DNA from: Kaustia mangrovi
GTDB taxonomy: Bacteria; Pseudomonadota; Alphaproteobacteria; Rhizobiales; Im1
Assembly: GCF_015482775.1 (NCBI RefSeq)
Contig: NZ_CP058214.1
Location: forward strand, 4,268,501 to 4,332,500
Direction of reading: 5' to 3'
Length of the DNA: 64,000 nucleotides
In this document: piece after piece, positions 16,819 to 20,298 of the stretch
How positions within the stretch are numbered: position 1 is the first letter of the stretch
Layout of the letters: the number at the start of each line of letters is the position of its first letter
Notes under the pieces: generated by a model
What the model was told of the DNA's origin: nothing
The model's database searches: none
What the model saw: only the letters and a program-made list of their open reading frames with translations
Translations under genes and position numbers: made by a program

Positions 16819-17406
16819 ATGCTAAAGAGTGCTGTCGACCATCTTTTAACTAATGTGATCCCTGCTGCGCAGGACTATGGTAGCGCGGAGAACGACTTGT
16901 CGGCGGCTTTCCAACAAAATGCTGATCCTGCCCACTGGGAGAGGGTGGGGCAGCATGCCAAGCGGCGCGCCGCAGAGGCTGCGATTGCCATCGACGGCCT
17001 TGCAGACCGAACCGCCAAAGCTCTCGGGTCAACGCCCAATAAGGTGCGCGATGACGTTGTTCCCTATTGCGCAATCGGAAGAGTTGCTCGTCTCGGAAGC
17101 ATTGAGCGTATCTGTGCCGTCGCCAACGCTTACAAGCATGCTGACCTGTCAGACAGAAAACACCCGATCCGCTCGGAGGCGGATATCCTCGCTACGGGTG
17201 CCGGCTACGGAATTGACTGTTATGGCATCGGCAAGTGTCGGGGCGTAGAGGTCCTGGTGACCGAGCGGGATGGCACGGTGCGGAAGTTTCTTGGTGACGT
17301 ACCATGGGCGATTGCGGGGTGGTTTCAATATCTTGAGGCACGGAGCGCGGCGTTGCCGCTCGGCGAGTTCTATGTCTGTGGGCTTTGCGTAAAAACCGGC
17401 TCTTGA
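16819..17406 (+). CDS. Hypothetical protein, AT-richer orphan gene between inverted repeats
   Basis: This 195-aa ORF is not recognised. It starts with ATG after a short AAGG at 16810-16813. The protein looks soluble and mainly helical in its N-terminal two thirds: an Ala-rich segment around residues 50-70, then RICAVANAYKHADLSD near residue 100. The C-terminal part, with a few cysteines and VLVTERDGTVRKFLGDV, may be beta-rich. No signal peptide or membrane segment is seen. Codon use is visibly more AT-tolerant than in the flanking genes. The gene is bracketed by two inverted copies of a 31-bp palindromic element, which suggests acquisition. The NAYKH stretch vaguely recalls helical families of unknown role, but I assign no function. 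Confidence 0.65.
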   Translation: MLKSAVDHLLTNVIPAAQDYGSAENDLSAAFQQNADPAHWERVGQHAKRRAAEAAIAIDGLADRTAKALGSTPNKVRDDVVPYCAIGRVARLGSIERICAVANAYKHADLSDRKHPIRSEADILATGAGYGIDCYGIGKCRGVEVLVTERDGTVRKFLGDVPWAIAGWFQYLEARSAALPLGEFYVCGLCVKTGS

Positions 17407-18577: not shown

Positions 18578-20236
18578 TTATGGAACGCAGAGTATCTGTG
18601 CGGTGAACGCCGCTCCGCGCTCGGCAAGTGTCGGTCGTTCCTCTGTATCGCTGGCCGTCTGGCTCTTGAAGACGATATTGGCCGAACGCAGGAAGGCACC
18701 GATGGTCTCGTTACGAATCGCGAAATTGATGTTCTGCGGAATGGCATCGAACATCGTGACCACGGCCCTGTCATCCAGTCTTGCGGTCACGATACCCACC
18801 ACATGACCCGTCATGTCGAGCACGGGGCCACCTGAATTTCCGGGTTGTATGGGCGCAGACAGCTGGAAGTACCGGGTGTCGCCCCGTACGCCAGAGAGGC
18901 TGTTCACCTCGCCCGATGTGACACTCAGCGCCCCTCCCAGAAGAGGGGCCAGTGGATAGCCCAGTACAACGACCTCCGATCCGATTCTCAAAGGGGCGTC
19001 CTGGAAGATCGCACCCGCAACCTGACTGTCAGTCTCGACCTTCAGGGCCGCGAGATCGTTGGTCTTGTCGACCAGAAGCAGGCGAGCGGTGCCATGGGAG
19101 GGCACGGTGATCGTTCCGCAGTCATTCACGACGTGAGCGTTGGTCAGCATGACCGCATCGTCGGTCACGAAAAAGCCTGTTCCGCTCGTCGTGTTCCTGG
19201 GCGGGGCTTCGTCTTTTGGAGTATGCGGGGTTTCTACTTCGCGCTCCTCCGCCACCCAGACCCGTTGCTCGAACCCCTTTCCCTTTGAGAGGAAGGAGCT
19301 ATCGGGAATGGAGCCGATTGTCGCGAAAGTGGCCCGTATCGTCTCTGCAACCGAGGAGTCGAAAACACCGAGGACGATGGCGAACCAACCATTGGCGGTC
19401 CGATACACAGCCGTATGCTCGAACACCTTTGCATATTGGCGGGCCAGGGTTACCGCTTCGTCCTTGGTACTCCTGCTGGCCGCGACGATGAAAACGGGCC
19501 CATCGGAGGACGGCGCCCTTTGTGTGGGGCGCGGCCGTTCGAGATTGAACACGGCGTCTGCCAGAGCAAGGACAATGCTCTCGATATTCGGCAGGACCCT
19601 TGCCTGCCAGGAAATCGAAATGCCGCGTGTCGCCGATGGCGTGCGGCGCATCCGCAGATAGAACCTTTTCCCGCGATAGACGCCGGTTACAACGAAGAAG
19701 TCGTCTTTCATCACCTTGTAGGAGACGGAGCGACGCTTGCCGGAACGGCTCAATCGCTCGAAGAGGTCCGAATACGACGTGTCGGCGTAGGGCATGGCTA
19801 TCGTCTCGATGACGAAGTCCTCCGACAGTGATTGCCATCGCGATCCACGTCGGGTTGCCGCTTTTGTCTGTATGAGATTGCGGGGAATTCCTAGCCGCTG
19901 CCCGGAACGGGGATCATCGGTGAACTCAAAGCCCACAACGCTCATGATCTGAGATGACCGACGCTTGAGAACCGCGCGCTGGCCCGCATTGAGCACCCCG
20001 TTCGGGCGGTAACCGCTCCTGGTCTGGAAGGCCACGATGGCATTGTAGGTGCGCCGGCCAAATTCCCCGTCCGGCAAGGCGTTGTAGTGACCCGTCCATG
20101 TCAGGTGCCATTGAACGAGCGCGCGCTCTGCCGCTGGAAGCGATGTGAACGCCAGGCGGGCGCGGTCGTAATCCGCGCGGGCCATGGAAAAGGTCGCGCA
20201 GATCAAAGCCAGAGCGATCAAAAGCCGATTGAACAC
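18578..20236 (-). CDS. Secreted peptidoglycan-binding, trypsin-like serine protease
   Basis: This 552-aa protein has a signal peptide (about residues 1-21) and a PG_binding_1-type domain (about 40-95, with ALPDGEFGRRTYNAIVAFQ). A middle region has a SPOR-like segment around 249-330 (FIVAASRSTKDEA ... GWFAIVLGVFD). The C-terminal half is an S1/HtrA-type protease. The catalytic triad is visible: H368 (NAHVV), D394 (TNDLAAL) and S468 (GNSGGP). No PDZ domain follows. The architecture suggests a periplasmic protease tethered to peptidoglycan; that role is inferred. The start is GTG (20236). Codon use is less GC-biased than in core neighbours, hinting at transfer or relaxed constraint. Confidence 0.82.
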   Translation of the reverse strand: MFNRLLIALALICATFSMARADYDRARLAFTSLPAAERALVQWHLTWTGHYNALPDGEFGRRTYNAIVAFQTRSGYRPNGVLNAGQRAVLKRRSSQIMSVVGFEFTDDPRSGQRLGIPRNLIQTKAATRRGSRWQSLSEDFVIETIAMPYADTSYSDLFERLSRSGKRRSVSYKVMKDDFFVVTGVYRGKRFYLRMRRTPSATRGISISWQARVLPNIESIVLALADAVFNLERPRPTQRAPSSDGPVFIVAASRSTKDEAVTLARQYAKVFEHTAVYRTANGWFAIVLGVFDSSVAETIRATFATIGSIPDSSFLSKGKGFEQRVWVAEEREVETPHTPKDEAPPRNTTSGTGFFVTDDAVMLTNAHVVNDCGTITVPSHGTARLLLVDKTNDLAALKVETDSQVAGAIFQDAPLRIGSEVVVLGYPLAPLLGGALSVTSGEVNSLSGVRGDTRYFQLSAPIQPGNSGGPVLDMTGHVVGIVTARLDDRAVVTMFDAIPQNINFAIRNETIGAFLRSANIVFKSQTASDTEERPTLAERGAAFTAQILCVP

Positions 20237-20275: not shown

Positions 20276-20298
20276 AACAACAGTTGACGGGTGTTGTT
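20276..20298. promoter_or_regulatory. Inverted repeat upstream of the trypsin-like protease gene
   Basis: AACAACA (20276-20282) and TGTTGTT (20292-20298) form a 7-bp inverted repeat with a 9-base spacer, 40-62 bases upstream of the protease GTG. It stands out in the 124-base gene-free interval and could be an operator. No regulator is proposed. Confidence 0.35.

Follow-up and report, generated by a model that had tools for sequence, protein, structure and literature searches.

Described systems closest to the window protein

DegS and the HtrA proteases (TIGR02037 and relatives) are periplasmic, with a trypsin fold, a catalytic triad and a GNSGGP motif. These features are shared by the protein analyzed here, which would also be periplasmic and is encoded in the window, the whole stretch of 64,000 nucleotides of Kaustia mangrovi DNA that was analyzed; its similarity to DegS minus the PDZ domain reaches a Z of about 21. 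In contrast to these proteases, the window protein has no PDZ match, carries PG_binding_1, a domain named MID here and a putative SPOR domain in addition, and remains under every NCBIfam HtrA cut-off. It also possesses a cysteine residue shortly after the catalytic histidine that 21 trypsin-domain proteins, HtrA-type by assumption, do not have. MarP of Mycobacterium tuberculosis is likewise a periplasmic serine protease, membrane-anchored, with no known PDZ domain and with a disulfide at another place; the window protein scores 81.6 bits with the MarP model (NF033740), far under the cut-off of 250. MarP processes the peptidoglycan endopeptidase RipA, an earlier case of a wall hydrolase whose activity depends on a protease (excerpts of PMC7554673).

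A SPOR fold within a secreted protein is known from RlpA, DamX, DedD, FtsN, CwlC and RgsS. That of the window protein differs from these in being internal, in being joined to a protease and in having lost the ligand glutamine. According to excerpts of PMC6895207, the contact between SPOR domain and glycan is largely via the main chain, and a glutamine residue, Q270 in RlpA and Q251 in FtsN, contacts the glycan. Q270 of RlpA is described there as a highly conserved side chain and R302, R309 and R311 as a basic patch, while Q251, S254, W283, R285 and I313 of FtsN matter in septal placement. In Sinorhizobium, reliable selection of the new pole for growth requires both the SPOR part of RgsS and the amidase AmiC (excerpts of PMC7822825).

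The single domains are already known. For their combination, searches of open-licence PubMed Central papers brought up no published description, as judged by titles and the starts of abstracts, and no paper of that collection matched a search for MarP, RipA and the disulfide, the related matches listed being on mycobacteria, related Corynebacteriales and general wall stress.

Gene and domain architecture

The gene is on the minus strand of the window, with the following features.

18578..20236, minus: whole gene, open frame of 552 amino acids with a GTG start, relatives detected
20174..20236, minus: signal peptide, residues 1-21, assigned by eye, with probable cleavage between ARA and DYD
19967..20131, minus: PG_binding_1, residues 36-90, from Pfam and the genome search
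19532..19948, minus: MID, residues about 97-235, a conserved beta-rich domain without a name that follows PG_binding_1 in the family
19247..19501, minus: putative divergent SPOR domain, residues about 246-330, beta-alpha-beta-beta-alpha-beta
18581..19192, minus: protease domain of HtrA type and trypsin fold plus the C-terminal tail, residues 349-552, Trypsin_2, no PDZ match
19133..19135, minus: codon of the catalytic His368
19055..19057, minus: codon of the catalytic Asp394
18833..18835, minus: codon of the catalytic Ser468, within GNSGGP
19118..19120, minus: codon of Cys373, 5 residues past the catalytic His, probable disulfide partner
18587..18589, minus: codon of the C-terminal Cys550, probable disulfide partner

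The alignment shows ALADY in the proteins of two loci (L069 and L070) at the site matching the predicted cleavage. PG_binding_1 (PF01471) scored 32.5 bits at residues 36-90, compared to a Pfam cut-off of 23, and the whole-protein model places its helices at residues 35-47, 61-73 and 84-101. The pLDDT of MID in the same model was 89 to 97 by ten-residue blocks. MID had no relative under an E value of 1 among the PDB sequences and, in 10 scanned proteins with PG_binding_1 (PGB in domain orders) followed by MID, there was no Pfam family common to its members, the matches being PG_binding families and four weak single-member matches. In the fold searches with the whole model, the rows shown were all occupied by the protease.

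The protease domain matched Trypsin_2 at residues 352-482 with 89.4 bits, above the Pfam cut-off of 27.6, and the triad H368, D394 and S468 is intact within a trypsin fold. PDZ was not among the six Pfam matches of the protein at E values up to 1. The Do-family HtrA model of NCBIfam (TIGR02037) gave 87.4 bits versus a cut-off of 416, and the closest solved folds were those of DegS without PDZ, for instance 2qf3_B with a Z of 21.0, an rmsd of 2.3 and 162 aligned residues.

An earlier note on this gene had proposed a signal peptide, PG_binding_1, a SPOR-like region and an intact PDZ-less HtrA-type protease, and this layout is confirmed by Pfam, by the fold and profile tests and by the triad. It had named the lack of a SPOR or peptidoglycan-binding fold in structure predictions as the result that would refute it; both folds are present there. 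All domains in its inventory were found, but MID at residues about 97-235 had been overlooked, as had the broad family and its pseudoproteases treated below.

The segment between MID and the protease

A domain search around residues 240-335 had also been suggested. With residues 241-340 as query, SPOR (PF05036) was the sole Pfam match, at an E value of 0.019 and 15.7 bits and therefore below the 21-bit cut-off. When seven isolated module sequences were compared with Pfam SPOR, one passed (L086, 22.1 bits), that of the window remained below the cut-off and 5 of the 7 were without a SPOR match. Among four full-length proteins from f74, another family of the same class, L090 passed with 24.7 bits, two reached 15.5 and 13.0 bits and one had no SPOR match; as isolated segments, the same four scored 28.3, 19.5, 15.1 and 16.7 bits.

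A profile of 25 SPOR-module sequences (alignment A2) was compared with one built from 34 SPOR domains that Pfam recognised, of which five belong to the genome of the window and 29 to as many related genomes. The comparison gave 96.4% and an E value of 1.4e-9; the controls stayed far lower, with no more than 1% for three other domains of the family and no more than about 0.2% for five column shuffles. Counting against this result, the value dropped to 63.8% when eight rows that were more distant or had the Gln were removed, and the window with its nearest relative alone gave 1.5%. Searched with the A2 profile, the PDB sequences returned FtsN as top match (E value 7.7e-4), followed by CwlC (0.014).

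An AlphaFold model based on A2 had a pLDDT of 90.3, a pTM of 0.79 and the order beta-alpha-beta-beta-alpha-beta. In the whole-protein model, the confidence for this stretch was low, 57 to 80 for residues 241-310 and 35 to 43 for residues 311-340, with only two alignment rows there. In a Foldseek search with the SPOR model, CwlC and DamX were leading, and a PDB match at an E value of 1e-3 or lower was absent, which counts against the assignment. VIA-align ranked RlpA at positions 1 (Z 8.4, rmsd 2.7, 72 aligned residues) and 2 (8.0), DedD at 4 (7.0), CwlC at 5 (6.9), DamX at 7 (5.9) and FtsN at 16 (4.3), so that SPOR domains were 5 of the top 7 solved folds. Against the assignment count the non-SPOR folds at rank 3, an exported Burkholderia protein (7.9), and at rank 6, HP0184 of H. 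pylori (6.0), and a Z of about 8 is middling by the tool's own note, so that the best value of 8.4 is not decisive alone. From the profiles and the models, we take residues about 246-330 of the window protein to be a divergent SPOR domain.

Evaluation of this domain as a glycan binder needs to consider the contact residues. The ligand glutamine of strand 1 is replaced by valine in the window protein; it is present in 6 of the 24 module sequences with a residue at that place, compared to 32, at the matching column, of the 34 SPOR domains from the same taxonomic order that Pfam recognised. A tryptophan aligned with FtsN W283 occurs in 16 of the 25 module sequences, that of the window included. 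In an alignment judged by eye, the window protein has an arginine 5 residues ahead of this tryptophan, as R302 is ahead of L307 in RlpA, and an alanine at the place of R309/R285; the arginine perhaps sits at the place of RlpA R302. Glycan binding may be altered, because of the exchange of Gln for Val and the alanine at the R309/R285 place.

Domain orders and distribution of the family

Profiles of PGB, MID, SPOR and trypsin were built from the fetched loci and the reading frames were annotated with them, using selected hits rather than every hit. This yielded 78 distinct frames in which both PGB and MID occur, and these were sorted into 60 PGB-MID-trypsin, 8 PGB-MID (four of them ending at the edge of a stretch), 7 SPOR-PGB-MID-trypsin, 1 PGB-MID-trypsin-SPOR and 2 PGB-MID-SPOR-trypsin frames. 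The last two are those of the window and of G223, the latter with a copy (L124) in a Tepidamorphus metagenome-assembled genome. A SPOR module is thus attached to the PGB-MID-trypsin protein in three different orders, and in two further loci (L085 and L013) SPOR is joined to a trypsin domain without PGB and MID. In addition, frames of 250 to 530 amino acids with a SPOR-like module but without the other three domains were observed (L086, L087 and L104-L111); three of these (L086, L087 and L104) had no Pfam match above cut-off at full length. Another locus (L084) combines a SPOR-like module with a weak PG_binding_1 match.

The survey of the architecture across Hyphomicrobiales that the earlier note had called for was run in the order, whose named members, Afifella marina and Tepidamorphus among them, identify it as Hyphomicrobiales. 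An initial search of named genomes with a single protein gave no match. The MID-SPOR query matched 89 of the 397 genomes of the order and the PGB-MID profile 370 of the 397, many of the weaker listed rows spanning PG_binding_1 only. The description of the architecture as uncommon is correct for the exact domain order, found in 2 of the 78 annotated frames, but does not hold for the set of domains, for which 101 of the 120 f74 genomes gave a match.

In a tree of 67 rows (3 of 70 were omitted as too incomplete), the window protein stands beside G223 with an SH-aLRT of 99%. The difference between active and pseudo forms required 2 changes and the presence of SPOR 4 changes. One single origin of the pseudoproteases may nevertheless hold, since the starred branches force only 1 change.

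Catalytic residues and the cysteine pair

A trypsin match was present in 70 family proteins, and 64 of these were counted, after omission of five open-ended frames and one gapped at two catalytic places. The triad His-Asp-Ser is kept in 20 of the 64, the window protein included, and 44 are without at least one of the three residues, 2 of these due to a gap at the His place. Among the six omitted proteins, L118 has triad and cysteine, L059, L160 and L162 have the cysteine without the triad, and L168 is gapped. The shared function of the family may not be proteolysis, because 44 of the 64 are without at least one catalytic residue. In all nine PGB-MID-trypsin proteins fetched from family f35 (L151-L159), Leu or Gln replaces the catalytic His while Ser is kept.

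The relatives in f74 were searched with L092 as query, with matches in 101 of 120 genomes and 100 of 119 genera at E values of 1e-20 or lower, a few of them partial. The 33 loci examined were the 29 best besides L092 plus four others (L090-L093 and L201-L229), so that they represent the nearest relatives of L092 and the rest may vary. All 33 encode SPOR-PGB-MID-trypsin proteins with both cysteines and none of the three catalytic residues; the SPOR glutamine was found in 32 by pattern and in the last one by eye, and 31 of the loci contain a GlyQ-like frame. An f74-type protein is also present in Fuscovulum blasticum DSM 2131 and in Rhodobacter sp. YIM 73028, and its three catalytic residues, as seen by eye, are replaced in both. 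Fuscovulum blasticum belongs to the Rhodobacterales, and f74 is apparently of this group.

Of the three cysteines of the window protein, C13 lies in the signal peptide, which leaves C373 and C550 as the only ones in the mature protein. All 64 complete family proteins have a cysteine 5 residues past the His place and a second one towards the end of the trypsin domain, the count of the latter accepting any cysteine across a stretch of about 37 residues. Against this rule, L044, which ends just after the His and is outside the 64, kept His but has Ala at the place of the first cysteine. The 21 HtrA-type proteins mentioned above possess Ala, Gly or Ser there, and the cysteine is present in six additional trypsin-domain proteins that carry neither PGB nor MID. 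This indicates that the first cysteine marks a subgroup of proteases and not the wall domains. A disulfide between C373 and C550 is probable.

Codon use and surroundings of the gene

The deviating codon use stated previously was recovered: GC3 of the gene is 0.71, compared to a mean of 0.87 (standard deviation 0.07), and the second lowest of 48 window frames, which were chosen mechanically and some of which are possibly wrong. The lowest value, 0.61, is that of a 195-amino-acid frame at 16819-17406 on the plus strand of the window, without a Pfam match at an E value of 0.01. The MID-SPOR query found no match in three sampled genomes of the window's own family. A recent transfer was considered from this result and the low GC3, yet weak expression could yield the same codon signal, and the idea was dropped.

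The flanking genes, ZinT and EamA, give no pointer to the wall, which counts against a wall-directed function. Both recur as neighbors in three Roseibium/Labrenzia loci inspected by eye, as explained by close kinship. A promoter scan found none, where a mean of 0.3 was expected. An inverted repeat, AACAAC-GTTGTT at 20276-20298 upstream of the gene, was noticed by eye and is a candidate operator.

Possible function of the protein

The computed domains, SPOR fold, intact triad, conserved cysteine pair, family and pseudoprotease branches are best explained by an HtrA-type protease without PDZ that is tethered to peptidoglycan and acts on proteins of the wall or of division, an explanation that we consider rather probable. 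The wall-directed secreted protease of the earlier note gains support here from the domains and the intact triad, export and wall binding being predicted from the sequence. The protein would be exported and its signal peptide removed, and PG_binding_1 together with the divergent SPOR domain would keep the protease in the sacculus, instead of steering by PDZ. Its location may be the zones processed by amidases, septum and new pole, where it might cleave a limited number of proteins involved in the wall or in division, for example hydrolases or their activators, and a Cys373-Cys550 disulfide would pin the C-terminal tail beside the loop of the catalytic His. Action at the growing pole or septum is possible, because reliable choice of the new pole in Rhizobiales depends on a SPOR domain and an amidase (excerpts of PMC7822825). 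Septal targeting of the window protein, which the earlier note had linked to binding of denuded glycan by the SPOR-like segment, is plausible, and is stated at this strength because the glycan-contacting glutamine of its SPOR domain is a valine.

This substitution, along with the presence of the glutamine in just 6 of 24 module sequences, leads to a reading compatible with the tethered protease, in which the segment is a SPOR-derived spacer or a protein-binding module instead of a glycan binder. It is a minority possibility, since much of the glycan contact is main-chain (excerpts of PMC6895207), the tryptophan at the FtsN W283 place is kept and, from the alignment only, the arginine 5 residues ahead is perhaps that of the RlpA R302 place. 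With respect to the protease domain, the absence of at least one catalytic residue from 44 of 64 proteins that all have both cysteines, and of all three from the 33 examined f74 proteins, again with both cysteines and from a group with matches in 101 of 120 genomes, would agree with a trypsin-fold domain that is mainly a wall binding scaffold throughout the family. It would dock a partner at the peptidoglycan via the disulfide-tied tail, and the triad of the window protein would be merely retained or regained. The full triad in 20 of the 64, the window protein among them, and the nine f35 proteins that lost His but kept Ser speak against this scaffold, which we regard as unlikely. Still less likely is an HtrA-like protease for general quality control in the periplasm, with the wall domains as a passive tether and no particular site in the cell: the fold of DegS/DegP and some score with the NCBIfam HtrA models, though far under the cut-off, agree with it, but there is no PDZ match, and the genome has five further trypsin-domain matches that could do such work, the three listed being 512 to 522 amino acids long.

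For the family as a whole, we tentatively propose, as a reading that could well turn out either way, that trypsin-fold proteins tethered to peptidoglycan form a so far undescribed family in Alphaproteobacteria, with the core PG_binding-MID-trypsin and a SPOR domain that changes position, and that this family comprises active proteases and conserved pseudoproteases. The pseudo form with the Gln-bearing SPOR, near-core in the apparently rhodobacteralean f74 and encoded beside glyQ, would serve as a landmark on the wall or as a scaffold in division, and its partners would be cleaved at these sites by the active form.

If the tethered protease is the correct explanation, periplasmic proteolysis would be connected with marked wall zones in Rhizobiales, an order that includes bacteria growing from the pole (excerpts of PMC7822825). 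The family also offers a natural comparison of live and dead proteases upon the same wall anchor, and the pseudoprotease relative in f74 is a conserved protein, matched in 101 of the 120 sampled genomes of one family.
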